Shown one piece after another: positions 7,175 to 46,327 of a stretch of DNA of 64,000 nt. A model generated the notes under the pieces. It had not been told where the DNA came from, did not search any database, and saw only the letters and a list, made by a program, of their open reading frames with translations. Numbering within the stretch: the stretch's first letter is position 1; each line of letters starts with the position of its first letter. The stretch is from positions 62,001-126,000 of the forward strand of contig JAKAGT010000001.1 in NCBI GenBank assembly GCA_021825585.1, in the 5' to 3' direction. This DNA is from Bacteroidota bacterium. GTDB lineage: Bacteria > Bacteroidota > Ignavibacteria > Kryptoniales > JAKASW01. The position numbers were made by a program, and so were the translations under genes.

Positions 7175-7899
7175 AGTTCAACTTCCTTCTTAAAGAGCGC
7201 CTTCAGCTTCGCAATGACCTCCGAATGTATCTGGGAGACTCTCGATTCGCTTATCCCGAGCGTCTTTCCGATTTCTTTGAAGGTCAGTTCTTCATAGTAG
7301 TACAGGGTGACCACCATCCGTTCCCTTTCAGGGAGCTGCTTCAGCGCGATGACGAGCTGTTCCTTCATCTCGGCATCCTCGTACATTTCGATCACTTCGC
7401 TGTCGCCGCTGATCACGTCTTCCAGGGTCATGTCCTCGCCGATTGACCTCGTCAATGAAACGGCATCGGCGTTTGCCAGGTAGCCCTTGATCTGCTCAAA
7501 CTCGCTCACGCTCATGTTGATCGCTTTTGCGTACTTCTCGCCGTTCACCGTGTCCATGTTGAGTTCGCTGAGCGACTTGGATGCCTTCTTATACTTGTCC
7601 CTGACGGACCTCGGCAGCCAGTCGACCTTTCTTATCTCATCAAGCATGATTCCGCGGATCCTCTGGGAGGCGAAGGTCTCGAACTTCACTCCACGGGCCG
7701 GATCGAATCTCTCTATCGCTTCGTTAAGGCCGATGATACCGATGCTCATCAGGTCCTCGTTGTTGAACACGCAGCGGGAAGGGAGATTGATCGCCCTCGC
7801 GGCGAATTTCACGAGATTCAGATACGCGAGCACGAGTTCTTTCTTTGTTGCCGCGGATCTCCGCCTCGAATACTTTTTCCATAGTTCCTGAGTAGTCAT
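7171..7899 (-). CDS. fliA: FliA, flagellar sigma-28 factor
   Basis: The alternative sigma factor for late flagellar and chemotaxis genes. The 242-residue product has no region 1.1 and shows region 2 (GLNEAIERFDPARGVKFE, FASQRIRGIMLDEIRKVDW), the region 3 opening LPRSVRDKYKK, and region 4 (LPERERMVVTLYYYEELTF with the helix-turn-helix GKTLGISESRVSQIHS). This order and length match FliA/SigD/WhiG proteins. The gene follows flhF-flhG and a small membrane protein gene (4-base overlap at 7896-7899) and overlaps the HDOD-sigma4 gene downstream by 4 bases. No gene of the FlgM anti-sigma factor is visible in the window. Confidence 0.96.
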   Translation of the reverse strand: MTTQELWKKYSRRRSAATKKELVLAYLNLVKFAARAINLPSRCVFNNEDLMSIGIIGLNEAIERFDPARGVKFETFASQRIRGIMLDEIRKVDWLPRSVRDKYKKASKSLSELNMDTVNGEKYAKAINMSVSEFEQIKGYLANADAVSLTRSIGEDMTLEDVISGDSEVIEMYEDAEMKEQLVIALKQLPERERMVVTLYYYEELTFKEIGKTLGISESRVSQIHSEVIAKLKALFKKEVEL

Positions 7900-17380: not shown

Positions 17381-17383
17381 TTT

Positions 17384-17524
17384 CTAATCAAGCCTCTTCT
17401 TGATGTTTATTAAGATCCACGAGACTCTAAACTCAAGCACTATGCCGACCTTTGGCGTCGAATACAGAGCGTTTTTTGCGGTTTTGAGGAAGCGGATTGG
17501 ATTACCTGCCCAATATTGAGCAAG
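17384..17524 (-). other. open reading stretch without a start codon in the flbD-fliL gap
   Basis: The 272 bases between flbD and fliL (17381-17652) contain no convincing gene. One frame is open for 46 codons before a TAG at 17386-17384 and gives a protein-like string ending WILINIKKRLD, but no ATG begins it and an in-frame stop lies just upstream. A 7-base inverted repeat (CAATATT at 17511-17517 with AATATTG at 17530-17536) lies at its beginning. It may be a gene remnant or chance; I cannot assign a family. Confidence 0.2.
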
Positions 17525-17652
17525 TGGTTAATATTGTAAGAGGTCCTTAGGCAGGGAATCGTCTTCCAGAATCCCGAAGGAAAGAACGGCCTTCTTGATG
17601 AAGATTCGGCCCTGAAATGTCAAGAGAGAAGAACTGCGAAGGATGTGAAAGC

Positions 17653-17862
17653 TCAAGCCTTGAGCCGGTCTTCAAGACTGGACCCACTTATTCGCTTCCG
17701 GTACTCGACTACTTTCTCAATTATTTCGTCAAGTCCCTCTTTGACCCGGATTTTACGGGTCGTTGTAAGCGTAAGTATCGTATCGTGGGCCTGCTCGATC
17801 GTCTCAATCAGCTCTGCATTGATGACGATTTCCTCTCCATTTATCTGAGTCAATCTCACCAT
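17653..17862 (-). CDS. flbD: FlbD-family flagellar protein
   Basis: A 69-residue protein of the FlbD/YlzI family, small cytoplasmic proteins encoded in flagellar operons downstream of flgE. The family pattern is complete: MVRLTQINGEEIVINAELIE, then the DTILTLTTTRKIRVKEGLDE block and a charged C-terminus. Its biochemical role is not established. This FlbD is unrelated to the Caulobacter sigma-54 activator of the same name. A strong ribosome site (AAAGGAGGAAG) precedes the ATG, and a strong hairpin (17892-17921) lies between it and flgE. Confidence 0.93.
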   Translation of the reverse strand: MVRLTQINGEEIVINAELIETIEQAHDTILTLTTTRKIRVKEGLDEIIEKVVEYRKRISGSSLEDRLKA

Positions 17863-17891
17863 ATCTTCCTCCTTTGTTGAGGTCCGGCGGT

Positions 17892-17921
17892 TTAAGGGCG
17901 CAGACCTGGCTGCGCCCTTAA
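17892..17921 (-). repeat. perfect 12-base-pair hairpin between flgE and flbD
   Basis: TTAAGGGCGCAG at 17892-17903 is the exact reverse complement of CTGCGCCCTTAA at 17910-17921, with a 6-base loop. It lies 17 bases past the flgE stop codon. No run of T follows on the minus strand, so it is not a classic intrinsic terminator. It is better explained as an mRNA-protecting or partial-attenuation structure that lowers expression of flbD and later genes relative to the hook protein gene. That role is inferred. Confidence 0.8.
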
Positions 17922-17938
17922 CTCAACGCCTTCTGACT

Positions 17939-29939: not shown

Positions 29940-30329
29940 CTACTGCCCATTTATGCTTTTGTCAATGAGGTTCAGTGTATCTGACATAAGCCGCGCTGCC
30001 AGCTTGAACTTCAGCTGGTTCTTGGCAAGATCGGCCATTTCCTGCTCGATGCTGACGTTGTTGGCGCCGCTCGCCAGAAAACCGTTCGGGTCCAACTTCA
30101 GCTCGGGTTGAACCTGCTCAACATTCTGGCTGAGAGAGACGTCGTTGTTCGAGTCTGCGATTGCGTTTGAGAGTTCGTTCTGGAAACTGACGTAGACACG
30201 CCTGTAGCTAGGAGTCCCGATGTTGGCTATGTTGCTGGCGATTGCCTTATTCTCGATTGAAAAGGCATCCATCTCTTTCTCGAGTAAGGGAACCCTGCTT
30301 CTGTCAAATAGACTTATCTTCATGCTCAT
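29940..30329 (-). CDS. flgB: FlgB, proximal rod protein
   Basis: A 129-residue proximal rod protein, the first classical flagellar gene of the run. The N-terminal pattern IENKAIASNIANIGTPSYRR and the C-terminal NVSIEQEMADLAKNQLKFKL with ARLMSDTLNLIDKSI are diagnostic for FlgB. The ATG (MSMKISLF) lies inside the stop codon of the preceding 45-residue reading frame in an ATGA overlap, so flgB translation is likely coupled to that frame. A second ATG 6 bases downstream is also possible. Confidence 0.96.
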   Translation of the reverse strand: MSMKISLFDRSRVPLLEKEMDAFSIENKAIASNIANIGTPSYRRVYVSFQNELSNAIADSNNDVSLSQNVEQVQPELKLDPNGFLASGANNVSIEQEMADLAKNQLKFKLAARLMSDTLNLIDKSINGQ

Positions 30330-30463: not shown

Positions 30464-30493
30464 TCCAACACTCCTTTACTCCACGCACTATCT

Positions 30494-30508
30494 TCAACGT
30501 TTGTGCCA
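30494..30508 (-). promoter_or_regulatory. sigma-54-like (-24/-12) promoter for the flagellar operon
   Basis: On the minus strand the sequence reads TGGCAC-N5-TTGA (30508 down to 30494). GG and the -12 element have the required 10-base spacing. The consensus is TGGCAC-N5-TTGC, so the last base is not ideal. Transcription would begin about 30482, giving a leader of about 19 bases that contains the strong ribosome site of the 45-residue gene. Two NtrC-type activators are encoded in the same window. Confidence 0.55.
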
Positions 30509-30629
30509 ATGACAAAACGGACAATCCAACCGAATTAGAGGCTATACATCGTATGCTTGATTAATATTCTCCATCACTGCCCACTATTCACCAAACCACT
30601 CGTACCCCGGCCTGACTTGCACCGCAGGC

Positions 30630-30699
30630 GGACAAATATCCTGGACTCGAAGTGAGTGGGAGGTACCGTCTCCCTTGAGATACACTCCCAAATATGTCC
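30630..30699. promoter_or_regulatory. candidate enhancer dyad between the two sigma-54-like elements
   Basis: GGACA at 30630-30634 is matched by its reverse complement TGTCC at 30695-30699, both next to A/T-rich ATAT steps. Inside lie GGGAG (30658-30662) and CTCCC (30670-30674) in inverted order, and a further CTCCC near 30685. The centre at about 30665 lies roughly 160 bases from each sigma-54-like element, a typical distance for an NtrC-type activator site. It is a pattern-based guess. Confidence 0.3.
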
Positions 30700-30815
30700 G
30701 AAGAACGGTCCAGCCGCGGGCTACTATTATTCAAACTCCAGGCTAATATTCCGCATAACGGAAGCTGTCGCGGGTTGAAACTTCAGAAAACACAAGAAAT
30801 TCCGAGGAAATGGTG

Positions 30816-30830
30816 TGGCACACTAATTGT
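30816..30830 (+). promoter_or_regulatory. sigma-54-like (-24/-12) promoter for the chemotaxis operon
   Basis: The plus strand reads TGGCAC-N5-TTGT at 30816-30830, with GG and GT spaced by 10 bases as required for the -24/-12 class. Only the final C of the usual TTGC is missing. Transcription would start near 30842, only a few bases ahead of the first start codon at 30846, which would leave almost no leader; this is the main weakness of the call. A mirror element lies at 30494-30508. Confidence 0.55.
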
Positions 30831-30845
30831 TTTTAAAGAAAGTGA

Positions 30846-31232
30846 ATGCTTATGAAAACTATACTGATCCATGAAAAAGATACCGAACTCCTCTCAGCGT
30901 GGGCGAGCTACCTTTCGCAGGACGATCTGGCCGTATTCACTTCGGCCGATGCTCTCGAAGCGGCAGAGATTGTATCCACGGTGAATGTGGACTCGGTGGT
31001 AATTTCTTCTAACGACCCAGCTGCCTTTCTTCTCATCGCAGGAGTCCTGAAGAGCAGAAAAATGCCGGTTGACGTTGTAGCGATTTCCCGGATGCAGACG
31101 GCCGTGCTGCGACTCCTCCTCGGGAGTGAGAATTTTGTCAGGCTGGAATCCCCGTTCACTTTTGGCACACTCGAAGACATAGTCAGGGTTGCCAACCTAA
31201 AACCGAAGGCGATGCAGAATGCTCTTGTTTAA
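30846..31232 (+). CDS. degenerate receiver-like (pseudo-receiver) protein
   Basis: A 128-residue protein with the length and alternating pattern of a CheY-type receiver: strand 1 KTILIHEKD, strand 3 VDSVVISSNDP, and the end FVRLESPFTFGTLEDIVR. The acidic pair, the phospho-accepting Asp after strand 3 and the conserved Lys before the Pro-Phe (KPF in true receivers, SPF here) are all absent, so it is unlikely to be phosphorylated. Pseudo-receivers usually act by protein contact. The start is 30846 or 30852 (second Met); no strong ribosome site decides it. It overlaps the next gene by 14 bases and is first in the chemotaxis operon. Confidence 0.65.
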   Translation: MLMKTILIHEKDTELLSAWASYLSQDDLAVFTSADALEAAEIVSTVNVDSVVISSNDPAAFLLIAGVLKSRKMPVDVVAISRMQTAVLRLLLGSENFVRLESPFTFGTLEDIVRVANLKPKAMQNALV

Positions 31233-31788
31233 GAAGGTTTCTGTTTCAACTGTGGTCACAATCGTGGCCTTTATGGCGATGCTCGGGACGCCGCGCGCGG
31301 CGGGAACGAGTGCCACCCCGCTGCAATCCATATATATGATGAAGCAGATAGTTCCCAAGGTGACCACAGTAGGAATCATGTGGAACAAATCGACAATTAA
31401 CGTCTCCGACCTGCTGCCCCAGATAAACCGCGCTTCGCTGTCGGTTGGTGTTAAGGTCGTTATCGAGGATGTGGAACAGATCCAGGACGTATCGGCCAAG
31501 TTCAGAGATCTCGTTGAGAACTATCATATTCAGGTCCTCTGGATATTGCAGAACGACGACCTTTACGGAAGTTCTATTGTAAAGGGATATCTCATAAAGA
31601 ATTCAACCCTGAGCGGCGTCGCGCTTTTTGCACCGGGATCCGATTGGGTCTCTGCCGGTGCGTGTGCGGCGCTAATGTCAGAAGGCGGCAATGCAAAGCT
31701 CTTCGTCAATCAGAAAACCTTAACCGCGCTTGGGCTGACAGTTCCTCAGCAGTTCGCGCAGACGACTCAATTCCTCGCCACGAATTAA
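31219..31788 (+). CDS. periplasmic substrate-binding-like protein (ABC_sub_bind type)
   Basis: A 189-residue exported protein with a signal peptide (about residues 1-28). The mature part resembles the PF04392-type substrate-binding family: IVPKVTTVGIMWNKST, a middle VLWILQNDDLYGSS, GVALFAPGSDWVSAGACAAL and a closing TLTALGLTVP. At this length it lacks much of the usual N-terminal lobe and could be a shortened binding module. No ABC permease or ATPase is nearby; instead it precedes an MCP by 9 bases. That context suggests it presents a ligand to the chemoreceptor, as indirect-binding chemotaxis proteins do. The ligand is unknown. Confidence 0.7.
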   Translation: MLLFKKVSVSTVVTIVAFMAMLGTPRAAGTSATPLQSIYMMKQIVPKVTTVGIMWNKSTINVSDLLPQINRASLSVGVKVVIEDVEQIQDVSAKFRDLVENYHIQVLWILQNDDLYGSSIVKGYLIKNSTLSGVALFAPGSDWVSAGACAALMSEGGNAKLFVNQKTLTALGLTVPQQFAQTTQFLATN

Positions 31789-31797
31789 GGAATACCG

Positions 31798-33696
31798 ATG
31801 AACACGAATCAATTTTTGTCCAACGCAAAGCTGCGCAGAAAATTTTCCGTACTCCTTGCCGGGATTATGCTCTTCGCGTGGATCCTCCTGTTTGCATACT
31901 CGAGATACTCACTGAATGTCACGGAACAGCAGTTCAATCAAAGAGCCATTCTCCTGGCCGAGACCATGGGCGCGCAGTCCCAGTACGGATTGATGATGGG
32001 GGATGCTACCGGACTGTCGGAGTCGCTGAACAATGTGATATCAGCGGGAGATGCGATTGCCGGCGCTTTTTACGACCAGAACGGCAAGTTGTTGGCCCAG
32101 GTGGACTTCAGTTCCGTCGAGTGGACGCCACCTCAATTCGCTTCCCTGACGAAATCGATACAGTATTCGAAAACAAACGCCGGGGTTCCTGTAATTATCG
32201 CGGCGGAGAAAATTGTCAATAAGTCGACTGGTCAGACATTGGGATACGTTGCGGTTGCGACATCTTCTCAGGCGCTGGAGGCCGAGAAGAACAGCGGGTT
32301 GGTGGTGTCCGTGGTTACATTCGCGATTTTCGCGTTGTTCGGCTGGTTTGCCCTGCTCCTTCTGGGCAAGGCAATTACAAACCCCGTCAATGTCCTGAAA
32401 CAATCCGCCCAGAAGGTTGCATCCGGTGATTTCCAGGTCAGGGTCGATCTGAATCAGCGCGACGAGATCGGCGAGCTCGCGGCTGCTTTTAACATAATGA
32501 TTGAGAACAGTAAGAAGTCCATGGATGAGATAAACCAGAAGACTCAGCAAGCGGAAGAGGCGAAAACATTCGCCGAAAAGATGCAGAAGGATTCCGAGGA
32601 GCAGCAGGAGTATCTCAAGAAGCAATTCGGGAAAATATCGACGGTGATCGAGGCTGTCACCAAAGGCGACCTCACAAGAGAGCTGACAGTAGAAAGAGAC
32701 GACGAAGTCGCGGCGCTGATGCTAAAAATCAACCAGATGATACGCGACCTTAATTCGCTCATCGGAGAAGTACATACTGCGGGCAATTCACTGGCACAGG
32801 CTTCGACACAGATCTCCTCGGCAGCCGAGGAAATGTCCACTGGTGCAGGTGAACAGGCCACCCAGACTCACGAAGTTGCCACTGCCGTCGAAGAGATGTC
32901 AAAGACAGTAATCGAGTCATCCAAGAGCGCCAACGAAGCAGCGGAAATGGCAAAGAGAGCTTCCGAGCTCGCAAACGTCGGAGAGAAGGTGTTTCAAGAG
33001 ACCATCAGCGGGATGGCGAGAATCGCGCAGCTCGTGAAAAAGTCGGCGGAAATCGTGGATACCCTCGGCAAATCGAGCGCTCAGATCGGGGAGATTATCC
33101 AGGTCATTGATGACATAGCGGACCAGACAAATCTTCTCGCGCTCAACGCTGCTATCGAAGCTGCAAGGGCGGGAGAGCAGGGACGCGGGTTCGCAGTAGT
33201 CGCCGACGAGGTCCGCAAACTCGCCGAGCGAACGACCTCGGCCACAAAAGAAATTGCCGGTATGATCAAGAGAATCCAGCAGGAGACCACGCAGGTCGTC
33301 CTCGCAATGACAGAAGGCAACACGGAGGCGGAAAACGGGACAAAACTCGCCGATAAGGCAGCCAGTTCCCTCTCCCAGATAATCGCCTCGGTAAACGGCG
33401 TCGTAGGAATGATAAACCAAATTGCGGCGGTCAGCGAAGAACAGTCTTCCACGAGCGAACAAATTTCACATAACGTCGAAGGCATATCCTCAGTGGCCGG
33501 TCATGTATCTGCTGCGACAGTCGATCTTGCGCGCACGGCGGAGAACCTCAACACTCTCACCGAACACTTGAGAGAACTGATCGAACGCTTTCACCTTGAC
33601 GTAAAGACGGAACAGAGAAGTTCTTATGCCGTCAGGGAGAACGGCAAGATTGTGCCGATGCACAACGGCCATTCCAACGGTACAAAAAGGAGCTAA
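31798..33696 (+). CDS. methyl-accepting chemotaxis protein with CHASE8-like sensor
   Basis: A 632-residue transmembrane chemoreceptor. Helix 1 lies at about 16-35, a periplasmic sensor at 36-165, helix 2 at 167-189, and HAMP at 190-243, with a second HAMP-like helical stretch before the signalling hairpin. The hairpin tip carries [20 protein letters not shown] and the following [20 protein letters not shown], identical in type to the other two MCPs here. The sensor, with [19 protein letters not shown] and [14 protein letters not shown], resembles CHASE8-type domains known from diguanylate cyclases. No C-terminal NWETF-like tether is present. It lies between the binding-like protein and cheW. 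Confidence 0.93.
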
Positions 33697-33699
33697 GAA

Positions 33700-34191
33700 G
33701 TGACTGCAAACAACCAATCGAACGAGACCATTTATCAGCTTGTAAGTTTCGTCGTTGAGGACGAAGAATTCGGCGTGGACATCCTGAAGGTGCAGGAAAT
33801 CATCAGGACAGTCGACATAACCCGCGTTCCAAAATCGCCGGAGTTCGTCGAGGGTGTGATCAATCTCCGTGGAAAAATAGTCCCGGTGATCGACCTGAGG
33901 ATACGATTCGGTATTGCAAAACGCGAGCGTGACAACGAGACAAGAATAATCGTGGTTGAACTTTCCGACAGGGTCGTCGGATTCCTCGTCGACAAGGTGA
34001 AGGAAGTCATCCGGGTTGAAAAGAACATCATCGAACCGCCGCCGGAGTTAACCACCAGCATCAGTTCGAATTACATTACCGGCGTTGCGAAACTTCAGGA
34101 CAGGCTCCTGATTCTTCTCGACCTGGATAAGGTATTATCCGGAGAGGAACAGGAACACCTCTCAGAAGTTGAGACAGGCGCAAATCTGTAA
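33700..34191 (+). CDS. cheW: CheW, chemotaxis coupling protein
   Basis: CheW couples receptors to CheA. The 163-residue product consists of one CheW domain: LVSFVVEDEEFGVDILKVQE, TRVPKSPEFVEGVINLRGKI, VPVIDLRIRFG and the closing LLILLDLDKVLS. The start is GTG at 33700, supported by GGAG 7 bases upstream; no suitable ATG exists. The gene begins 3 bases after the stop of the CHASE8-like MCP. It is the only cheW in the window. Confidence 0.96.
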   Translation: MTANNQSNETIYQLVSFVVEDEEFGVDILKVQEIIRTVDITRVPKSPEFVEGVINLRGKIVPVIDLRIRFGIAKRERDNETRIIVVELSDRVVGFLVDKVKEVIRVEKNIIEPPPELTTSISSNYITGVAKLQDRLLILLDLDKVLSGEEQEHLSEVETGANL

Positions 34192-34254
34192 TCGCGCCGG
34201 ATATACCTCTTAGATCTTTTTCCCGACAAAACTGTAAACGAGGTGGGCAAACCT

Positions 34255-36423
34255 ATGCAGTGGATTAACAACATCCGACTTTCGACACGCACCATTATCT
34301 CTTTCGGGACGGCTGCTCTAATACTGGTTCTCTGTTCCTTTCTCCTTAGCAGCACGATTGAAAGAAACATGACGACCGGGAACAGGGCCATCGCGGGATA
34401 TTTAGGCGGGCTGCGGGCTTACGAAGAAATGTACGCTTATTCATTAAAGGCCGAATCTGCAGAGAAGGACGTTTTGCAGGAAGGGGTTTTAGCCAGTGCA
34501 AAATACCAGAGTGCTGCCGATGGATTCACGCAGGAAATCAACGCATTGTTGAATGACCGAAATACACCGGGCAATAACACACTGCAGGAAATATCGCAGA
34601 TTTGGAGCGCCATTCAGGAGAGACAGGCACAGTTGAAGACCGCTGCTTCACAGAGATACAACAGGTCCGGGGCCATTCTACCGGCCGATTTGAGCGAACA
34701 GTACTCGAGTCTCAGGGCAAAGATTGCTTCGGTGTCCAGAACCATATCCGGACAGATTTCGCTCGCGCGGTTGAAGGAATCGGAAGGTGCTTCTCATCTT
34801 GCACAGACGATGTGGTTTGTGACGGCTCTTCTTCTCCTTGCAATTATCGGGGCGGCGGTGGCTTGTTACAGATCGCTCGTCGGTCCGCTGCGGCTTTTCA
34901 AGGAAGTGATGCGGAAAATATCAGCCGGCAAATTCGGTACCCTTGTAGAACTGAAGACAAAGGACGAGTTCGGAGAGCTTGCCGATTCGTTCAACGGGAT
35001 GTCGATGGACATAGCGAAGCTCGCCTCCTATTTGAACGCAGTAGGAAATTCTGTTTATGCGGTCGACAAGCAGTTCACAGTCCAGTTCGCCAACTCTGCA
35101 GCCCTCCGGTTTGCAGGAAAGGGTTACGACGAAGTGGTCGAGAAAAAGAAGTGTTATGATGTTTTCAAACTCCCGATTTGCAGGACGGCCAGCTGCCCGG
35201 TTTCGAGGGCATGGGAAGAGAGAAAAATGATTTCCGGCGAATCGAATTCGAGCCAGAACGAAAAGGAAATCCCGGTCCTTTACCGAGCTTCGTCGGTATT
35301 TGATCTGGAAGGAAACGCGATAAGGGGAGTCGAAGTACTAACCGACATCACGGAAATGAAGACGTTTGCGAACAAGCTCGAAACCCAGCGGCAGTATCTC
35401 TCTGACAACGTGAACAGTCTTCTCAGGGAGATGAGCCGGTTGGCGGAAGGCGACTTAACGGTCGCCATGGAAGTGAGAGACAACGACGAAACAGGAAAGC
35501 TTTTTGACGGTTTCAACAGAGCCGTTTCGAATTTCAGAACAATAATGGAACAGGTAATAAGATCCGTCCGGGAAACCGCGGGTGCTTCTTCAGAGATCAG
35601 CAATTCGGCGGAAATACTCTCATCCGGGGCCCACGAGCAATCGACGCAGGCCGGCGAGGTAGCGGCGGCGGTCGAAGAGATGACGAGGACCGTGATTGAC
35701 AATGCGAGAAACGCATCCAGCGCGGTCCAGGCTGTCACGGAAAACGGGAGGGTCGCTCAGGACGGCGGCGAAGTTGTGCAGAGAGCGGTACTCAAGATAA
35801 AGGAGATCGCAGAGGTCGTCAAGAAGTCGACAGATACCGTCAACCAGTTGGGCAAGCTCAGCGGAGAAATCGGCGAGATCGTCTCCGTAATCGACGACAT
35901 TGCCGACCAGACGAACCTTCTTGCGTTGAATGCCGCAATTGAAGCGGCCCGCGCCGGTGAAGAAGGAAGAGGATTCGCGGTCGTCGCGGACGAAGTCAGA
36001 AAGCTGGCCGAGCGTACGTCCCAGGCAACGAAACAGATTTCGGCCATGATAAAGAATATCCAGGCCGGGACAACAGAGGCTGTGGAGACGATGCGCCGCG
36101 GAAACGACCAGGTGACAGAGGGCATCATGCTGGCTGATCAGGCTGACGAGTCATTGAAGAATGTCGTCAGCAATGCGCGGAACATCATTGACATGATTAA
36201 TCAGATCGCTGCTGCCAGCGAGGAACAATCATCGGCAAGCGAGCAAATATCCAGAAACGTCGAGACCATTTCTTCCGTATCCTCCGATTCAGCGAAAGGA
36301 ATCTCTCAGATCGCAAAGGCCGCGGACGGCCTCAGTAAACTGACCGTTGACCTGGAAAAGCTCACGGACAAGCTCATAGTTGAACCAGACAGGGCGCTTA
36401 ACTTCAGCGCTTCCAGACAATGA
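34255..36423 (+). CDS. methyl-accepting chemotaxis protein with PAS domain
   Basis: A 722-residue chemoreceptor read from ATG 34255, which has AGGTGG 8 bases upstream; a GTG at 34243 would add four residues. Helix 1 is at about 14-33, the periplasmic helical sensor (4HB-like) extends to about 183, helix 2 to about 204, then HAMP (205-258). A PAS domain follows at about 262-375, with Cys 300, 309 and 314 grouped in [15 protein letters not shown]; such clusters sometimes bind iron or sense redox, which is only a possibility here. A second HAMP-like stretch and the standard signalling hairpin ([20 protein letters not shown]) complete the protein. Confidence 0.93.
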
Positions 36424-36456
36424 ACGTTTTGAAAATAAATATGGCGAAGAACATCG

Positions 36457-38208
36457 ATGGAAACACTTTCACGCGTTAAGATCACCACTAAAATCATATG
36501 GGCGGTATTACTATCGACGGCAATTTCACTCGCAGCAGCCTCCGAGGGGAATTATTTCCTCATGTCGGGTGCGGCATTGCTTTCTCTCGCGAATGCGTTA
36601 CTGGCGGCTGCGGCCATCAGAAAAGAACTCAACAAATTGAGAGAGAATGCGGACGTCGTTTCCGACGGGAAATACGACGTGACGTTCGACCAATCCTCAA
36701 CCACGGAGATCGGCAGGCTGTCTGCATCGATGAGCCGGATGGTCAATCGCTTCAAGGACGAATTCGCCGTGTCACACAGCATCCAGGCAAGCATAGAGAG
36801 CCCCCTTTTCACTGCCGACAAGGAGACCGTCATAACTTTTCTGAATAAATCCGCATGTGAGCTGATGGATGTGGTTCCGGAGGAAGTGATTGGCAAGAAG
36901 ACGACCAAGGATCTCTTCGGCTCAGACAAGGCCACGCGGAGCGCGCTGGCAGGTCATCCGATGCCCGCATACGAAGTCAAAATAAAAACCCCCAATGGCG
37001 TATCAATTCCGGTGATAGCCAGCTCCGGCCCCATCAGGAAATCCAACGGAGAAATAATCGGCTCGTTTCTGACTTTCATCGATCTACGAGAGAGCCTCAC
37101 CAGGCAGCGGGAGTACTTACAGCAACAGGTGAAACCTATTGCGGAGGCAGTTGCCCAAGTCGCAGGAGGAAATCTCACGGCATCAGTACACATCAATGAA
37201 GACAATGAGGTTTACGAACTCGGCAGGCAGGTGCAGGAGATGATTGCCGGTCTTAGCTCTACACTCGGACAGGTATCCGAAGCCTCGAATTCCGTCAGCA
37301 ACGCCGCCTCTCAAATCAGCAGCTCGACTGAGGAACTCGCGGCGGGTTCGCAGGAACAGTCGGCCCACGGGAGCGACGTGGCGGCGGCCGTAGAAGAGAT
37401 GACGAAAACAGTGATCGAAAATTCGAAGAATGCGGCAAACGCAGCCGAAGTTGCCAGAATCAGCGGCAGCGCGGCCAAAGAAGGAGGCGTTGTTGTCGAG
37501 CAGACGGTGAAGAAGATACGAGAAATCGCAGATGTGATACAAAGATCAGCATCGACGGTCGAGCAGCTCGGCATATCCACCGACCAGATCGGGGAAATCG
37601 TATCCGTCATCGATGATATCGCAAATCAAACGAACCTCCTCGCGTTGAACGCGGCGATCGAAGCGGCTCGCGCGGGAGAGGAAGGGAGAGGTTTCGCCGT
37701 GGTAGCCGATGAGGTGAGAAACCTTGCGGAGAGGACCACCCAGGCAACAAAACAGATAGCCGCTATGATCAGGAGTCTCCAGACCGAGGCCACCGAAGCC
37801 GTGAAATCCATGCGACTCGGCAACGAAGTGGTAACGGAAGGAATAAAACTCGCCGACAAAGCCGGCGATTCGCTGAAAGCCATAGTCGAAAATACCGAAC
37901 GCTCTGTTGACATGATCACCCAGATCGCAGCCGCAAGCGAAGAACAATCCTCAACAAGCGAGGAGATTTCCAAGAACGTGGAGTCTATCTCAACCGTATC
38001 AATTCAATCAGCTGCAGGCATATCTCAAATCGCAAAGGCGGCCGATGATCTCAGTGGGCTTACGGAGAGCCTTCGGATTCTCGTTCACCGCTTCAAGTTC
38101 GACAGTGAATCGACATTTCAGACCGTTCCCTTCGGCTCCTACGCCCGAGCATCAGGTGACCATGCAGGTTTACGGCATGAAATGGTCCGAGAAAACAGGA
38201 GGCTTTAA
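36457..38208 (+). CDS. methyl-accepting chemotaxis protein with PAS domain and almost no periplasmic part
   Basis: A 583-residue chemoreceptor whose two membrane helices (about 11-29 and 33-54) are separated by only a few residues, so it cannot sense periplasmic ligands in the usual way. HAMP (about 55-105) and a cytoplasmic PAS domain (about 108-215, with [20 protein letters not shown] and [14 protein letters not shown]) follow, then the signalling hairpin with [20 protein letters not shown]. The design suggests internal or redox sensing. It ends in a TAATG overlap with the DUF342 gene. Confidence 0.93.
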
Positions 38209-39548
38209 TGACGGACGTAATCGCAAAGGGCATAAAAGTCGAAATATCGCAAGACTCCTATGAGGCCTACATAGTCGTTGACGAATCAGACCTTCAGGTA
38301 TCGGATATCCAGGCGGCTCTCGAAACAAGCGGGGTCGTTTATGGGCTTGAAAGCAACGCAGCATTCGAAGCGATGAACAATTTGGGGAAACAGGTTCTCG
38401 TGGCAACTGGTACCCGGCACACAGACGGGACGGATGGTTGGTTCGAACGAATAAAGAGGCGCGAAGAGACAGAGGGTGAATCCAAATTCGGCATATCAAA
38501 TGTCTATGCCGGAGAGACTTTCGGGATTATTCATAAGCCTACACCCGGCAGCGTCGGGGTAGACGTATACGGCAAGAAGGTTCAGCCAAAGCCGGGCAAG
38601 AGCATAAACATCTTCACCGGCCCTAACATAAAACGAGTCGAATCAGATGATGCAATCGGCCTCGAAGCGACGATAGACGGCAACCTCAAGATGGGAAACG
38701 CGAGCGCCGAGATCATCGCGGAATACGTCATTAGAGGAGATATCGACTATTCTGACGGCGAGATTGAATTCGCAGGCTCCCTGAAGGTTCTCGGAGACGT
38801 CAAAGGAGCCGGCAGCCTGAAAATCAAACACAATGTCTACATCCAGGGCTCGGTCGAGGATGCGCGGATAATCTCCGGTGGCACAGTAAAGGTAAAAGGA
38901 AGTTTCGTCGGACGAGGGGATGGCTTGATACGGGCCGCAGGCGACGTCGAACTCAATGTAGTCCTCAATCAAATGATCGAAACCGGCGCCTCAATTACGA
39001 TAATCAAGGAATGCGTCAACGCTCACCTTATTGCAACCGAAGATATTATCGGACACAATGCGATAGTAATGGGAGGCGTAGTTACCGCGGGCAATAAAAT
39101 CGAGGTACGAACTCTCGGAGGCGAGCTGTATTCCACGACGAAAGTGAAACTGGGTACACTTGAATTGCTCACTGAGGATATCTTCGCCATCAACAAGGAG
39201 ATAGAGCTCCAGAAGAAAGCCTCCGAACAGCTGAAAAACGAGATATATCTGCTCGTCCGGGACAGGATAGACAACAACAACTTCACGAATGAGAAAGCGA
39301 ATCTCCTGAAGACTCTGCAGACGAGGCTGCAGGAACAGAACGACTCGATTAAGCAATTGACAGAAAGAAAACAGGATGCTTCAGCGGTCATCAGCAAGAA
39401 ACGGAATTGCGTGCTCACGGTCATCAGCCAGATCCATCAAAGCGTGGTCGTGGAAATAAACGGCGTGCGGTTTGCGCTGAAGCAGAGCTATAACAACGTC
39501 ACTTTCCAGGAAACCAAGGGCGAGATCATTCGCTCCAATAATCAGTGA
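38208..39548 (+). CDS. FapA/DUF342-family protein
   Basis: A 446-residue protein of the FapA (DUF342) family. The N-terminal part (about 1-115) is followed by the repetitive beta-helix stretch (about 130-260) with GDIDYSDGEIEFAGSLKVLG, DVKGAGSLKIKHNVYIQGSV and GRGDGLIRAAGDVELNVVLN, and then a coiled-coil (about 325-400). Family members occur beside flagellar and chemotaxis genes in several phyla, and the polymer-like fold suggests a scaffold, but the biochemical role is not established. The ATG overlaps the upstream MCP stop (TAATG), so the two are probably translated together. Confidence 0.88.
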   Translation: MTDVIAKGIKVEISQDSYEAYIVVDESDLQVSDIQAALETSGVVYGLESNAAFEAMNNLGKQVLVATGTRHTDGTDGWFERIKRREETEGESKFGISNVYAGETFGIIHKPTPGSVGVDVYGKKVQPKPGKSINIFTGPNIKRVESDDAIGLEATIDGNLKMGNASAEIIAEYVIRGDIDYSDGEIEFAGSLKVLGDVKGAGSLKIKHNVYIQGSVEDARIISGGTVKVKGSFVGRGDGLIRAAGDVELNVVLNQMIETGASITIIKECVNAHLIATEDIIGHNAIVMGGVVTAGNKIEVRTLGGELYSTTKVKLGTLELLTEDIFAINKEIELQKKASEQLKNEIYLLVRDRIDNNNFTNEKANLLKTLQTRLQEQNDSIKQLTERKQDASAVISKKRNCVLTVISQIHQSVVVEINGVRFALKQSYNNVTFQETKGEIIRSNNQ

Positions 39549-39554
39549 TGAGAA

Positions 39555-40925
39555 ATGACAGATAAAATAGTCGAACAGTTGCATGCTTCGGACCCGTCGG
39601 AAAAGAGAATCCTCCTGGAGACACTCTATGATAATTACAAGAGTGATGAGGTGCTGGCGGAAGCGGCTCAATTATTGGGAGATGATGATCGGGGAGTTCG
39701 CGAGGCTGCCTCTCGCGTACTTGTGCTCGATGCCAGCGAGAAAGCCGCTTCGCTCATGGCCCCCCACATCGCGAACGCGAACATCTCGGTGCGGAATCTT
39801 GCCGGCGATTCTCTCGTCCGGATGAACGGAGCAGCCGTCGGTCCGCTTCTTCCCTATGTCGACTCGGATGACAAAGACACACGGAAATTCGCGATCGATC
39901 TTCTGGCTCAGCTCCCTGCAACTCCGGAAGGGATAGAACGAATAGCGGATCGCCTGGACGATTCCGACACAAATGTTGTCTGTGCGGCCATAGATGCACT
40001 TGGCTCGCTCCGTGCAAGAAGGCACCTCGGACGAATACGGGATTTGTTCGACAGGGCAATTTATGCGAGGCCGAATATCGTAAATGCCGTGTCAAAACTG
40101 AGCGATAACCGGGAATTGAGCTTTTTCCTCCGGGCACTGGCGGATGAAGATCCCGTAGTGCAACTGGCTGCGGCGGAGGCTCTTGCCGCGCTCAGAGACC
40201 CTTCCGTTCTGGACGCATTGCTGAACCATCTGGATTCAGTATCAGAACTCGCCAGGCCGGTCGTCCTTCACTCGATCGTTATTCTGCTCGATTCCGGGGA
40301 ACGCAGCGGGAAATTGCCCGACCGGTTGAGAGATTATCTCATCGCGATGCTCGACGACCTCGACCCGGTTTATGTCCGGACCGCAGTCCGCGGGCTGGGA
40401 CACTTCATCGACGAGAAGGTCCTATGCGCTCTCATCGATCATGCAGGAAAAGCCGATTCGATCGACCGCGCAATCGTGGCGGTCGTGGAAGATCATTCCC
40501 GCGAGGCCGTCCCGCTGATTCTCCAGCACGCATCGAAGCAGCCGAACAAGATCCCGCTTCTGAAAATCCTCATTACGATGATCGACGGCATCATTGCCGG
40601 CGGCAATGCGGAAGCATTCCCGGACCTTCTCGAAAAGATCGCAGACCTGCTTTCCGGAGATTTCCAGGAACTGGACGTCGATACAAAGACGGCATCCATG
40701 AACACATTCAGCAACCTGGATATCCGTCTCTCAAAGAACATCATGAAGGCGGCCCTGGACGACCCCGAACCGTCGGTCAGGAATTATGCGATCGACCTGA
40801 CGATGAAACTCGGCCCTCAAAATTTCCTTGAACAACTCGAATGGCTCGCCGAAGATTCCGATCCGGAGACTAGCAATGCAGCTGCAGCGATCCTGGGGAT
40901 GCTGAAGCAGGGTTACAGGGGGTAG
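39555..40925 (+). CDS. HEAT-repeat protein in chemotaxis operon
   Basis: A 456-residue, wholly helical protein built of consecutive HEAT-like repeats of about 30-38 residues, each with the pattern 'D.d..VR..A...L': DDDRGVREAASRVLVLD, SDDKDTRKFAIDLLAQ, DSDTNVVCAAIDALGSL, DEDPVVQLAAAEALAAL and DPEPSVRNYAIDLTMKL are visible. No enzyme motif and no membrane helix appear. Such repeats act as protein-binding scaffolds. Its place between the DUF342 gene and cheR suggests a role in organising the receptor array or methylation, but this is inference. Confidence 0.85.
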   Translation: MTDKIVEQLHASDPSEKRILLETLYDNYKSDEVLAEAAQLLGDDDRGVREAASRVLVLDASEKAASLMAPHIANANISVRNLAGDSLVRMNGAAVGPLLPYVDSDDKDTRKFAIDLLAQLPATPEGIERIADRLDDSDTNVVCAAIDALGSLRARRHLGRIRDLFDRAIYARPNIVNAVSKLSDNRELSFFLRALADEDPVVQLAAAEALAALRDPSVLDALLNHLDSVSELARPVVLHSIVILLDSGERSGKLPDRLRDYLIAMLDDLDPVYVRTAVRGLGHFIDEKVLCALIDHAGKADSIDRAIVAVVEDHSREAVPLILQHASKQPNKIPLLKILITMIDGIIAGGNAEAFPDLLEKIADLLSGDFQELDVDTKTASMNTFSNLDIRLSKNIMKAALDDPEPSVRNYAIDLTMKLGPQNFLEQLEWLAEDSDPETSNAAAAILGMLKQGYRG

Positions 40926-40935
40926 GACAAACCAA

Positions 40936-41808
40936 ATGAGTTTTACACTACCACCGAACACCCTTTACCCGCAAGGCACCAAACTGTCTGACGAGACCTT
41001 TCAGCTTCTCAGAAAATACATTTATGAACGAACCGGAATCTTCTTCGCGGACAATAAGAAGTATCTGCTTGAGAGCAGAGTTGGGCGGCGGCTTTCGGCA
41101 TTAAGGCTGGAGAGCTTTCCCGAATATTACAGCGCACTGCTGAACGGCATCGGTGCGGGCGAGCTGCCCCACCTGATAAACTCAGTCACGATAAACGAGA
41201 CCTTCTTCTTCAGAAACGACCCGCAGTTTATCGCCCTGGAAACGCTCATTCTCCCCGAACTCATAAAGAAAAGGATCGAACAGGGCAATTACAACATAAA
41301 GATCTGGAGCGCGGCCAGCTCGACGGGCGAAGAGCCGTACACTATCGCCCTCCTCATCAGAGAGAAGTTTCAGGCAAGATATCCCGCCGTGAAATTCGAG
41401 ATAGTCGGGACAGACATAAACACACAGGTCCTCGAGGTGGCAAGAAGGGGCGCCTACAAAGAATATTCAATAAGAAATATTCCCAGGCTCTATATGGACA
41501 AGTATTTCGAGCCTCACGGGGACCAGTTCATTCTGAGGGACGAAATAAAGAAGATGGTCAGGTTCAACCAGATGAACCTCTTCGACAGGGGCATGATGAA
41601 AACCATGCAGAATTTCGATGTCGTGTTCGCCGCAAATGTTCTGATTTATTTCGACTTCAATTCAAAGCAGGTCGTAGTGTCGTCAATTTACGACAGTCTG
41701 AACAAAGGGGGATACTTCTTTGTGGGCTATTCGGAGACTCTCTACGGTTTGACGCAGGCATTCAAGCCCGTGCATTACGACAAAGCAATTGCGTACCGAA
41801 AGGAGTGA
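40936..41808 (+). CDS. cheR: CheR, receptor methyltransferase
   Basis: CheR methylates glutamates of MCPs with S-adenosylmethionine. The 290-residue product has the helical N-terminal domain (about 15-85, with LLRKYIYERTGIFFADNKKY), the conserved INETFFFRNDP linker, and the methyltransferase domain with IWSAASSTGEEPYTIALL as SAM motif I and VFAANVLIYFD later. It lacks the TPR extension of some CheR proteins. The start ATG is 10 bases after the HEAT-repeat gene, and the stop is 6 bases before the next gene. Confidence 0.96.
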   Translation: MSFTLPPNTLYPQGTKLSDETFQLLRKYIYERTGIFFADNKKYLLESRVGRRLSALRLESFPEYYSALLNGIGAGELPHLINSVTINETFFFRNDPQFIALETLILPELIKKRIEQGNYNIKIWSAASSTGEEPYTIALLIREKFQARYPAVKFEIVGTDINTQVLEVARRGAYKEYSIRNIPRLYMDKYFEPHGDQFILRDEIKKMVRFNQMNLFDRGMMKTMQNFDVVFAANVLIYFDFNSKQVVVSSIYDSLNKGGYFFVGYSETLYGLTQAFKPVHYDKAIAYRKE

Positions 41809-41814
41809 GGAACG

Positions 41815-42180
41815 TTGGCAAAAGCAGTAATGGTCGTTGACGACTCCGAATCCATCAGGAAATTTCTCGTGTTCGCGCTTCGCTCCCAGGGCATTTCCGT
41901 TGTTGCCGCACGAGACGGAATGGATGCACTGGAGAAACTTTCCTTGAACAGGGTCGATCTCATAATCACCGATCTGAATATGCCCAATATGGATGGTTAC
42001 GAGTTTCTGAAAGCACTTCGCGAGGACCGCGAGTATTCCGAGGTCCCGGTAATCATATTATCTTCACTCAGCGGAGATCAGGATATCGAGGCGGGGCTCA
42101 GGCTCGGAGCGAATTCATATTTGGTGAAGCCGTTCGATCAGAAACGGATTCAATACGAAGTAGCAAAGTATATAAACTGA
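41815..42180 (+). CDS. CheY-type response regulator
   Basis: A 121-residue single receiver domain. Residues Asp9-Asp10, Asp53, Ser83 or Ser84 and Lys105 form a complete phosphorylation site (VVDDSESIRK, ITDLNMPNMDGYEFLK, VKPFDQKR). The start is TTG at 41815, with GGAGTGAGG upstream; the next ATG would remove the first strand. Compared with the following CheY, it lacks the CheY-typical DWNMPNMNGLEF, so it may serve as a phosphate sink or an adaptor rather than the motor-binding regulator. It is encoded between cheR and cheY. Confidence 0.93.
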   Translation: MAKAVMVVDDSESIRKFLVFALRSQGISVVAARDGMDALEKLSLNRVDLIITDLNMPNMDGYEFLKALREDREYSEVPVIILSSLSGDQDIEAGLRLGANSYLVKPFDQKRIQYEVAKYIN

Positions 42181-42194
42181 GGAGTAACAGATAA

Positions 42195-42566
42195 ATGAAA
42201 TTTCTTGTGGTTGATGATTCGCAGACAATGCGCAGGATTGTCACCAATGCCCTCAAGGGCATCGGCTATGACGACATAATCGAAGCCGAGGACGGCAAGG
42301 ATGCGTACGCAAAACTCTATATCGAGAAGATCGATTTCATAATCACGGACTGGAATATGCCGAATATGAACGGGCTGGAATTCACGAAGGCGGTGCGCGG
42401 AGGAGAAGAACAATACAATAGCCTGCCCATACTCATGGTTACTACCCGCGGGATGAAGGAGGATGTAATGGAAGCGCTGCAGGCAAAGGTGAACAACTAT
42501 GTCGTGAAGCCATTCACTCCGCAGGTCCTGAAAGAGAAAATCGACCTAATACTGAAGACTTTATAA
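42195..42566 (+). CDS. cheY: CheY, motor-binding response regulator
   Basis: A 123-residue receiver that closely matches proteobacterial motor CheY: VVDDSQTMRRIV, Asp52 in IITDWNMPNMNGLEF, Thr83/Thr84 in MVTTRGMKED and Lys105 in VVKPFTPQ. Phosphorylated CheY binds the N-terminus of FliM, whose binding helix is intact at 15847-16854. The stop codon overlaps an ATG at 42566 (TAATG), but the following phosphatase gene more likely starts at 42581. It is the best candidate for the switch-controlling CheY. Confidence 0.96.
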   Translation: MKFLVVDDSQTMRRIVTNALKGIGYDDIIEAEDGKDAYAKLYIEKIDFIITDWNMPNMNGLEFTKAVRGGEEQYNSLPILMVTTRGMKEDVMEALQAKVNNYVVKPFTPQVLKEKIDLILKTL

Positions 42567-42580
42567 TGAAAGAGGGCAAA

Positions 42581-43411
42581 ATGGATTCAAAGAACCTCGG
42601 GGGAATTTTAGACAAAATAAACGAGCTGCGCGCTCTGTTCATATTCGGTCAGCGGGTAATCCCATTTCTCGAAGAGCTATTCTACTTTGTGCACGACATC
42701 GTACCAGTCCTTGAAGAAATCAACGCTTCTATCTACGAAAGCGCCAGCAAAATGCCGCGGGCTTCTTCCCAGCTGAGCAAAGTAACTCAAGCAACCGAAC
42801 TGGCGACGACGGAAATACTGGATAATCTGGACGGCGTCATTTCCAGATTAGACACGATCGATTCGCACTTCCAGACTGCAACCGCGGATCTTAACGCGAT
42901 CGACAAGCTGGACAAGGACATGCTCGAGGCAGTCAAGTCTTCACTGAACGGCAGCCATCAGGAAACGCTCCGCGCCGTATCGGCTCTGCAAGAGCAAAAG
43001 GGTTCTCACCTCAAAGCGGTCAAGCTGAACGCCTCCGGCCTGGAGAAGAGCCTGAAGGAAATACGCGAGAAATCCAACGACATAATGATTTCCCTGCAAG
43101 TCCAGGACATCACATCACAACAGATCGCATCGGTGAATCATCTGATCGGTTCAGTGCAGGATAGACTTTCGAATCTCATAGACAGATTCAAGATAAGCGG
43201 CGAGGAACTCATCAGCGAAATCGAGAGGACCGATCACCGCACATTCGATCCAAACGCATCTTACGATAGATCGGGAGAACGGCAGAAAGCCGCCGATGAG
43301 GTCGTGGGCGGGTCGGCTCCGACGAGAGATAATTCAGAAGAGGCTGAAAAAAAAACCGTCAATCCGACATCGCAGGAGGAGATAGACAAACTTTTCGGAA
43401 AGGGGGCGTAG
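42581..43411 (+). CDS. cheZ: CheZ-like CheY-P phosphatase
   Basis: A 276-residue helical protein read from ATG 42581, which has GAGGG 4 bases upstream; an ATG at 42566 would add five residues. Long hairpin-like helices and the CheZ catalytic pattern QVQDITSQQI place Asp176 and Gln180 at the spacing of the E. coli catalytic Asp143 and Gln147. The C-terminus, SQEEIDKLFGKG, corresponds to the CheY-binding tail of CheZ and closely resembles the CheY-binding helix of FliM. CheZ is unusual outside Proteobacteria, but the catalytic motif and position beside cheY favour this call over an unrelated coiled-coil protein. Confidence 0.8.
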   Translation: MDSKNLGGILDKINELRALFIFGQRVIPFLEELFYFVHDIVPVLEEINASIYESASKMPRASSQLSKVTQATELATTEILDNLDGVISRLDTIDSHFQTATADLNAIDKLDKDMLEAVKSSLNGSHQETLRAVSALQEQKGSHLKAVKLNASGLEKSLKEIREKSNDIMISLQVQDITSQQIASVNHLIGSVQDRLSNLIDRFKISGEELISEIERTDHRTFDPNASYDRSGERQKAADEVVGGSAPTRDNSEEAEKKTVNPTSQEEIDKLFGKGA

Positions 43412-43416
43412 AACGC

Positions 43417-45261
43417 ATGGCAGAACATCCGATGTTTTCGGAGGAGCTGAAAGAAATTGTCGAGAGCTTCATAGTTGAGACTAACGACATATTCGAGAAG
43501 CTCGATAACGAAATACTGGAACTCGAAAAGAGGCCGGAAGACAAGGAACTCATCAACTCTATTTTCCGGGCCGTTCATACAGTAAAAGGAACTTCGGGCT
43601 TTCTGAGTTTCGAACAGATGACCGTGATCGCACACAGGTTCGAAGATGTCTTGAACAAGCTTCGGCGCGACGAGCTGAAATTCCAACCGGCAATGCTCGA
43701 CGTCATGTTTGAAGCGTTCGACCAAATGAAAGCACTACTCCGACAGGTCGTTGAACACAATATTCATGACATAGATTTCTCGGGTACGATCAAGAGGCTC
43801 GAATCACTCTCCAAGGGTGTCCTTCCTGAGAAGGCTGAAAAGGGTCCGGCAGAACAACAGGCGGCGGCTCCGGCATCGGAGCCTGCGATTGCAAAGAGTG
43901 CCGAGCCGGTCGATGTCGTCCAACGCAACACCGACCAGGAACAGCTGCAGACGTCACAGGCAAGAGAATCGGCGCCACAGGACGCTTCGCAGAGCCATCC
44001 GCAGGCATCCCAGCCTCAGAAAGCCGACAAAATAACGGACACGACGATCCGGGTCGATGTCGGGAGGCTCGACCACCTTATGAACCTCGTGGGAGAACTC
44101 GTCCTCGGGAGAAACCGTCTTTCCCAGATCGTGACGTCGTCCAGAGAGGACGATGCGGGAGAAGATTTTTCGCACCAGCTTTCCGAAACGAGTGCCCAGA
44201 TCGACTTCATCACCACCGAGCTGCAGACCGCTGTGATGAAGACGAGGATGGTCCAGATCGGGAGAGTGTTTAACCGATTTCCCCGGCTTGTCCGCGACAT
44301 AGCAAGGGAATTCAACAAGGACATCGACCTCGTAATCGAGGGAGAAGAAACGGAACTCGACAAGTCCATCATAGAAGAAATAAGCGACCCGCTTGTTCAC
44401 CTGATCAGGAATGCGGCGGATCATGGAGTCGAAGAGCCAGAGCGGAGAGAGAAGGCCGGCAAGTCCAGGCGCGGCACAATCCGCCTTACGGCAGGTCACG
44501 AAGGAAACCACATTATCATAGAAATACAGGACGACGGCGCGGGAATGGATCCCGAAATATTGAAGCGCAAGGCAATCGAGAAGGGCGTCATCACGGCCGA
44601 AGAAGCACACGAGATGAAGACCGATGACGCCTACAACCTGATATTCATTCCGGGTTTCAGCACCGCACAGAAGGTAAGCAGCGTTTCGGGGAGAGGCGTC
44701 GGGATGGATGTGGTCAAGACCAATATCACGAAGCTTAACGGGATAATTGCCGTGGAATCCGGGGTCGGAAAGGGGACGAAATTCGTGTTGAAGCTCCCCC
44801 TCACGCTTGCCATCATCCAGGGTCTCCTCGTGGCAGTGGGAACCGAGACATTCGCAATTCCGCTCAACTCAGTCCTCGAAGTTGTACACACATTCAAGTC
44901 GGATGTCGCGACAGTCAACGGCCGCGAAGTGATAAGACTGCGCGAAACTGTGCTGCCCCTTGTGAGCATATCGGATATACTCGACGTCCCTTTGCAGAGC
45001 GAAGAGCTGCGGGGCTTTTACACAGTGGTAGTGGGAGTCGCGAATCACAAGTTCGGAATTGTAGTGAATCGGCTGATCGGCCAGAAAGAAATCGTTATCA
45101 AACCACTTGGAGCCTATCTGAAGAACATCCAGGGAATAGCCGGTTCAACGATTCTCGGCGACGGACGCGTTATAATGATACTGGATGCAGGAGAACTCCT
45201 GAGACTTGCGCAAAAAGGAACCCACTCAAAAGCCTCCGTAGCCAGCGAGGTTGACCAGTAG
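43417..45261 (+). CDS. cheA: CheA, chemotaxis histidine kinase
   Basis: A 614-residue CheA with the usual order: HPt domain (about 1-105) with phospho-accepting His54 in IFRAVHTVKGTSGFL, a Pro/Ala/Gln-rich linker (about 135-205) that contains no clear CheY-binding P2 domain, dimerisation domain (about 208-275, VDVGRLDHLMNLVGELVLGR), ATPase domain (about 278-460, with HLIRNAADHGVEEPE and GRGVGMDVVKTNI) and a CheW-like regulatory domain to the end (about 465-605). The absence of P2 is visible in the short linker. It starts 5 bases after the CheZ-like gene. Confidence 0.97.
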   Translation: MAEHPMFSEELKEIVESFIVETNDIFEKLDNEILELEKRPEDKELINSIFRAVHTVKGTSGFLSFEQMTVIAHRFEDVLNKLRRDELKFQPAMLDVMFEAFDQMKALLRQVVEHNIHDIDFSGTIKRLESLSKGVLPEKAEKGPAEQQAAAPASEPAIAKSAEPVDVVQRNTDQEQLQTSQARESAPQDASQSHPQASQPQKADKITDTTIRVDVGRLDHLMNLVGELVLGRNRLSQIVTSSREDDAGEDFSHQLSETSAQIDFITTELQTAVMKTRMVQIGRVFNRFPRLVRDIAREFNKDIDLVIEGEETELDKSIIEEISDPLVHLIRNAADHGVEEPERREKAGKSRRGTIRLTAGHEGNHIIIEIQDDGAGMDPEILKRKAIEKGVITAEEAHEMKTDDAYNLIFIPGFSTAQKVSSVSGRGVGMDVVKTNITKLNGIIAVESGVGKGTKFVLKLPLTLAIIQGLLVAVGTETFAIPLNSVLEVVHTFKSDVATVNGREVIRLRETVLPLVSISDILDVPLQSEELRGFYTVVVGVANHKFGIVVNRLIGQKEIVIKPLGAYLKNIQGIAGSTILGDGRVIMILDAGELLRLAQKGTHSKASVASEVDQ

Positions 45262-45262
45262 A

Positions 45263-46327
45263 ATGTCGATAAGAATATTGGTTGTAGACGACTCCGCTTT
45301 CATGCGAAAAGCGATCTCAATGATGCTAGAGAGCGATCCCGATATCGAGGTGATAAGCACCGCGAGGGACGGGATGGAAGCCACGGAGAAGGCGAGGGAC
45401 CTGAAGCCTGACCTGATGACGATGGACGTAGAGATGCCCAGGATGGACGGGATAACGGCAGTTAAGAAGATTATGAAGGAAAATCCCGTTCCAATCCTGA
45501 TGGTCAGCTCACTTACAGTTGAGGGGGCCCGTGCGACAATGGACGCACTGGCTGCCGGTGCAGTGGATTTTATCCCGAAACAATTGTCCTACGTCTCCCT
45601 GGACATTACAAAGATCAAGGGTGACCTGATTGCCAAGATAAAATCCATAGCTCGCGACCGCTCCAGGGCCTTCTCCAGATTAGTGTCTCCCAAGACGTTC
45701 GCTCCCAGAAAAGCATCTCCCTTGAAATTCCTGAGTGCGCAGATTGCAACGATCGGTATCTCCACAGGCGGTCCCTTTTCTCTCCAGAAGGTCATCCCGT
45801 TCCTTCCTGAGGACTTCCCTCTCCCAATTGCAATTGTCCAGCACATGCCGCCGCATTTCACCAAGTCCCTGGCAGAGAGGCTTGATTCGATCAGCCGTGT
45901 AGAAGTGTGCGAAGCAGAGGACGGAATGGAGCTTAAAAAGGGGACCGTATACATTGCCCCGGGAGGACTTCACCTGAAATTCAAGCGAATCGGAGTCAAA
46001 GTACTGATTAACATCTCGAAAGATCCTTCCGAAACCCTGCATCGTCCGTCAGTGGACGTCATGTTCAGTTCGGCGTTTGAAACATTTGGCGGGAGGGTTC
46101 TTGCTGCAGTCATGACAGGAATGGGAAAGGATGGATTAGAAGGGGCAAAGCTAATCAAATCTGCCGGAGGAAAGATAATAGCCCAGAACGAGGAGACTTG
46201 TGTAGTTTACGGGATGCCCAAAGCAATCGTCGACGCTGAGCTTGCAGACGCCGTTCTTCCGCTGGAGGAGATAGCCTCAGCAATATCCAATGCCGTTTCA
46301 ACCACGGCGGCTCCCGCGAATTCATAG
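45263..46327 (+). CDS. cheB: CheB, receptor methylesterase/deamidase
   Basis: CheB removes receptor methyl groups. I start it at ATG 45263 (MSIRIL), 1 base after the cheA stop, giving 354 residues; an upstream TTG at 45251 would lie in cheA. The receiver domain carries the acidic pair DD, Asp55 in MTMDVEMPRMDG and the usual end. The methylesterase domain (about 160-350) shows the catalytic triad in STGGPFSL (Ser), QHMPPHFT (His) and TGMGKDGLEG (Asp). It is the last gene of the chemotaxis operon. Confidence 0.97.
   Translation: MSIRILVVDDSAFMRKAISMMLESDPDIEVISTARDGMEATEKARDLKPDLMTMDVEMPRMDGITAVKKIMKENPVPILMVSSLTVEGARATMDALAAGAVDFIPKQLSYVSLDITKIKGDLIAKIKSIARDRSRAFSRLVSPKTFAPRKASPLKFLSAQIATIGISTGGPFSLQKVIPFLPEDFPLPIAIVQHMPPHFTKSLAERLDSISRVEVCEAEDGMELKKGTVYIAPGGLHLKFKRIGVKVLINISKDPSETLHRPSVDVMFSSAFETFGGRVLAAVMTGMGKDGLEGAKLIKSAGGKIIAQNEETCVVYGMPKAIVDAELADAVLPLEEIASAISNAVSTTAAPANS

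Follow-up and report, generated by a model that had tools for sequence, protein, structure and literature searches.

A conserved divergent region with predicted sigma-54 promoters and mirrored candidate enhancers between flagellar and chemotaxis genes of an uncultured Bacteroidota-related lineage

The gap that separates divergently oriented flagellar and chemotaxis gene clusters in the window (the whole stretch of 64,000 nucleotides analysed here, taken from contig C26 in a draft assembly of 4.97 Mb) is, from its sequence, very probably a divergent sigma-54 control region, in which one activator acting at two mirrored enhancers would serve both clusters and the C of the -12 element would be dispensable in this clade. 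The sigma-54 promoter assignment made in the initial annotation is supported by the presence of rpoN, many sigma-54 activators, a site pair kept throughout the genus, and a mirrored, locus-unique motif at enhancer distance.

The minus-strand flagellar cluster (Table 1) also includes fliH and fliI after fliG, and flgF and flgG before flgA. Its FlgC has 'MAG: Ignavibacteriae bacterium isolate fen_1255' as closest named match (45% identity), which probably places the uncultured host in the Bacteroidota/Ignavibacteria neighbourhood. The 45-residue ORF ahead of flgB has a hydrophobic N-terminus, an acidic tail and a C-terminal YLGV, and among 13 genus genomes is intact in 12 and cut short in one (G007); comparable small ORFs are present upstream of flgB in families f2 (L033) and f13 (L034). 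Within the flagellar cluster, at 3742-5145 on the minus strand, is a gene for a GAF-domain histidine kinase that has no response regulator next to it and could be the kinase of the putative activator of the control region. On the plus strand, from 30852 to 46327, genes for a receiver-like protein and an ABC-substrate-binding-like protein are followed by the MCP and che genes. The receiver-like protein has no match in Pfam or NCBIfam, and in other genus members other small ORFs take its place.

Table 1. Coordinates of the divergent region, its predicted elements and the neighbouring genes (positions in the window).
Feature	Coordinates	Strand	Remarks
Divergent gap, 388 bp	30464-30851		Between flagellar (minus) and chemotaxis (plus) clusters
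Sigma-54-type -24/-12 element, flagellar operon, TGGCACAAACGTTGA	30494-30508	minus	Predicted start ~30482
B2, candidate enhancer of flagellar promoter, GGTGAATAGTGGGCAGTGATGGAGAATATT	30563-30592	minus	~-81 to -110
B1, candidate enhancer of chemotaxis promoter, mirror copy ending GGCTAATATTC	30718-30751	plus	~-91 to -124
Sigma-54-type -24/-12 element, chemotaxis operon, TGGCACACTAATTGT	30816-30830	plus	Predicted start ~30842
Small ORF, 45 aa	30326-30463	minus	First cistron 3' of flagellar promoter; conserved
flgB	29940-30329	minus	TIGR01396; start possibly 30323; first identified flagellar gene of cluster
fliA (sigma-28)	7171-7899	minus	TIGR02479; within flagellar cluster
Flagellar gene cluster	612-30329	minus	flgB-flgC-fliE-fliF-fliG ... 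flhA-flhF-flhG-fliA ... flgA, all minus-strand
Receiver-like small protein	30852-31232	plus	First chemotaxis-side cistron; ~10 nt 3' of predicted start
Chemotaxis cluster	31798-46327	plus	Three MCPs, cheW, fapA-like, HEAT protein, cheR, two cheY, cheZ, cheA, cheB
NtrC-family sigma-54 activator	51660-53024	minus	Histidine kinase adjoining at 53027-55060

Two TGGCAC-N5-TTG sites had been called in the initial annotation, and their positions, strands, -24/-12 spacing and missing last C were all confirmed, with TTGA at the minus site and TTGT at the plus site. An approximate scoring matrix served solely to locate sites. The two are the only exact matches to TGGCACNNNNNTTG in the window, where 0.27 are expected, and two matches were reached in 4 of 100 shuffles of the window. 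Across the whole source genome, which was covered by pattern searches and retrieved stretches, TGGCAC-N5-TTG matches 19 times compared with 26 for the reversed control. The bare pattern is uninformative genome-wide, but two matches within one 388-bp gap are informative, the chance of such a pair being roughly 1e-6 by arithmetic from the window rate. As counting of the bare pattern does not rise above the reversed control, we used conservation instead.

The genus set comprises 13 genomes: 11 flagellated ones found via FlgC, including the source genome, and two that contain neither flgC nor flagellin. The divergent pair, which the initial annotation suggested seeking before flgB in relatives, is present at that position in all 11 genomes with flgC, and is also kept in the two without it. 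In an alignment of the 13, the flagellar site reads YGGCAC-N5-TTGA in every genome and the chemotaxis site YGGCAC-N5-TTGT in 12, with TTGA in the other. GGCAC at -24 is invariant on both sides, as are the spacing and TTG at -12, and A or T replaces C at both sites in all 13 genomes. Column conservation averages 0.91 and 0.87 over the sites and 0.89 and 0.86 over two intervening blocks, compared with 0.52 outside these four elements; 57 of their 95 columns are invariant, versus 11 of the other 276 in the gap. This conservation settles that the site pair is real. Family f2, of the same order, has a canonical TGGCAY-N5-TTGC upstream of flgB.

The two blocks, B1 and B2, are oppositely oriented copies of one motif, GGYGANTANT...CA...GG..AATATT, each facing its own promoter. 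Their distances, computed from the predicted starts, can be set beside the ~70-150 bp at which enhancers of sigma-54 promoters usually lie (PMC3844500). The motif pattern is found at 21 places in the 13 genomes and at none for the reversed control; 20 of these adjoin the promoter pair and one lies beside the surviving chemotaxis promoter of G007, with no match outside the control region in this search of the 13 genomes. Because these same alignments supplied the pattern, its fit at the locus is partly by construction, but its absence elsewhere is not. B1 and B2 resemble enhancers at which a single sigma-54 activator would serve both promoters, and since they are copies of a single locus-unique motif, one DNA-binding protein probably acts on both sides. 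We take the shared motif to be the best sequence evidence for one activator serving both operons.

Two genomes document natural losses of flagella. In G008 (L295, G008:C141) the promoters and both blocks are intact, and a remnant of flgB is followed directly by a remnant of flhF, a junction that could be an assembly fault given how fragmented the draft is; ~20 kb of flagellar genes appear to be deleted, and fliA, flhG and the chemotaxis genes remain. In G007 (L293/L294, G007:C15), which has also lost its flagella, an intact chemotaxis promoter and block remain and the flagellar -12 region has drifted (CGGCACAAGCATTGA); fapA and cheZ are reduced to fragments and the chemotaxis cluster is partly eroded. 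The control region outlives the flagellar genes in both.

The initial annotation had made the sigma-54 reading depend on an rpoN gene, and one is present in the source genome (PF04552, E=1.7e-54, in a 489-aa frame) as well as in every one of the 20 genomes tested, all 13 genus genomes among them. The source genome also has 19 strong PF00158 matches to sigma-54 activators, two of them in the window. The NtrC-family activator in Table 1 was considered as the regulator of the control region and is possible but not preferred; it is 89-93% identical even in flagella-less genomes, and looks like a general regulator. A weak lead comes from presence and absence in five genomes: L051 (contig C57, NtrC-type) is the sole one of the 19 that is kept at 84-86% in G010, G005 and G008 and is absent from flagella-less G007. 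It adjoins its own PAS histidine kinase gene and a glutamyl-tRNA-synthetase-like gene.

With 19 activators encoded, both sites could be sigma-54 promoters that answer to different activators, or to extra regulators at each mirrored enhancer, such that the clusters are not switched by one protein. The state of G007, with its chemotaxis promoter and enhancer retained while the flagellar -12 region drifted, would fit such an arrangement, but B1 and B2 being copies of one motif absent elsewhere in the 13 genomes argues for a common activator, and we regard separate control as unlikely.

Leader lengths were derived presuming that transcription starts 12 nt from the -12 element. The initial annotation held that the minus-strand leader fits the first gene well, and a predicted 19-nt leader and ribosome-binding site do fit, although the first cistron is the 45-aa ORF and not flgB. 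It also expected the plus copy to leave only a few bases, which agrees with the predicted leader of ~10 nt; this spacing is itself conserved. A distance of 20-22 nt between -12 and the start codon is seen repeatedly, and G009 and G012 also have a good ribosome-binding site there. An Rfam scan of the gap returned nothing beyond chance. The very short leader, together with a first chemotaxis gene that varies among species, raises the alternative that the flagellar promoter alone is active and that the plus site is vestigial or binds RpoN silently, the chemotaxis operon using another promoter. We consider this quite improbable, given that the site is kept in all 13 genomes with its own enhancer-like block, is intact in G007 despite the loss of flagellar genes there, and has a recurrent spacing and, in two genomes, the ribosome-binding site noted above. 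Least probable of all is that the sites arose by chance or belong to a different sigma factor. In favour of this are the missing -12 C, the lack of genome-wide enrichment of the bare pattern and a sigma-70-like 9-of-12 match at 30515-30487 found in a scan of the gap, but this match is at chance level (0.9 expected), and the 13-genome conservation, the exact -24/-12 geometry, the presence of rpoN and the canonical TTGC at the equivalent position in family f2 all weigh against it.

In the sigma-54 control region that we favour, RpoN holoenzyme would occupy the two outward-facing -24/-12 promoters, and one NtrC-type activator, bound at two mirror-oriented enhancer copies each ~80-125 bp upstream of its own promoter, would open both; TTGA and TTGT at -12 would be explained if C is not required there in this clade. 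Sigma-54 would set off the structural and chemotaxis genes, and the late genes would follow via FliA, an order suggested by the position of fliA within the flagellar cluster and by a separate sigma-28-type promoter for flagellin (TAAAGTT...CCGATA, upstream of flagellin genes in 7-8 of 11 genomes), both of which are consistent with it. We infer the sigma-54 dependence, the single activator and the extents of the transcripts. One transcript per cluster is an assumption of the model, and internal promoters could lie in a 559-bp gap at 17381-17938, which holds a 69-aa ORF, or in other gaps of the 30-kb and 15-kb clusters. Counted against the model are the lack of the -12 C at both sites, a bare pattern not above its control, and the ~10-nt chemotaxis leader.

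Descriptions of sigma-54 promoters usually include the C at -12 in the essential TGC. Its absence here is not accidental, and the proposal that this shared deviation reflects a lineage-specific form stands in altered form: other conserved promoters of the genus, and promoters in related families, also carry A or T at -12, but canonical TTGC is used too, examples being the f2 flgB promoter and several sites within the genus that a simple codon model trained on the window genes assigned as intergenic. In the genus the C appears to be optional and not replaced. An element 52-71 nt upstream of the hsp20 start is present in all 13 genomes (L005, L400-L412), reading YGGCAY-N5-TTGA in 12 and TTGT in one, which suggests that this heat-shock gene is under sigma-54 control. 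The pattern TGGCACNNNNNTTGAWC occurs 35 times in the 13 genomes versus five for its reversed form, a few of the 35 being the flgB sites themselves. Among noncoding TGGCAC sites, seven downstream-gene families recur in at least two genomes, with A at -12 in six (including hsp20) and C in one. Outside the genus, flgB sites have a base other than C in 11 of 15 Bacteroidota, Ignavibacteria and Calditrichota lineages versus 3 of 14 others (Fisher p = 0.009, with a grouping chosen after the data were seen and lineages that are not fully independent).

The HTH of the genus RpoN ends in VVSAKY, against VVNSKY or AVNQKY in relatives, and the RpoN box of the genus protein reads ARRTVTKYRE in place of ARRTVAKYR. 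HTH residues E378 and R383 have been crosslinked to promoter DNA (PMC5505868), and the position of R383 is conserved in the genus. A single RpoN residue was rejected as the cause of the -12 change: family f2 has TTGC at flgB, yet the two f2 genomes that gave an hsp20 match show TTGA or TTGG there, so there is no simple RpoN switch. The chances seem evenly balanced that sigma-54 of this clade has a shifted or relaxed -12 preference, with TGGCAC-N5-TTGA (often TTGAWC) as a main form beside TTGC and possibly tied to changes in the RpoN DNA-binding domain.

Among the closest known systems is Caulobacter flaN/flbG, where Mullin and Newton (1993, cited in PMC3096577) reportedly described divergent sigma-54 promoters together with ftr elements and FlbD. 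The likeness lies in divergent flagellar units, sigma-54 promoters and enhancer-type elements for one NtrC-family activator, here a candidate from sequence; in contrast, one side here is a chemotaxis operon, the candidate enhancers are upstream and mirrored rather than downstream, and the -12 element is without C. Flagellar hierarchies in which a sigma-28 tier follows sigma-54 are known in Vibrio (FlrC) and in Campylobacter and Helicobacter (FlgR), and share with this system a sigma-54 role, predicted here, at hook-basal-body genes and a sigma-28-type flagellin promoter, whereas here chemotaxis genes share the control region and one gap would control both clusters. In Flavobacterium psychrophilum, of a Bacteroidota-related lineage, the sigma-54 regulon has a motif (SM4) with -24/-12 elements and includes control of chaperones (PMC9723704). 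Its use of sigma-54 at chaperone and stress genes matches the hsp20 promoters here, but that regulon comprises chaperone and gliding genes and not flagella (PMC9723704). The present system is of a known kind, with a lineage-typical, relaxed -12 element.

If the relaxed -12 preference is correct, standard sigma-54 promoter searches would miss much of this clade's regulon; the textbook TGC requirement would be lineage-dependent, and a conserved non-C -12 would alter sigma-54 regulon prediction in Bacteroidota-related phyla. A single small control region would tie the swimming machinery to chemotaxis in an uncultured lineage, with both clusters switched on together, and the mirrored motif is a candidate master-regulator motif with one target locus per whole genome.
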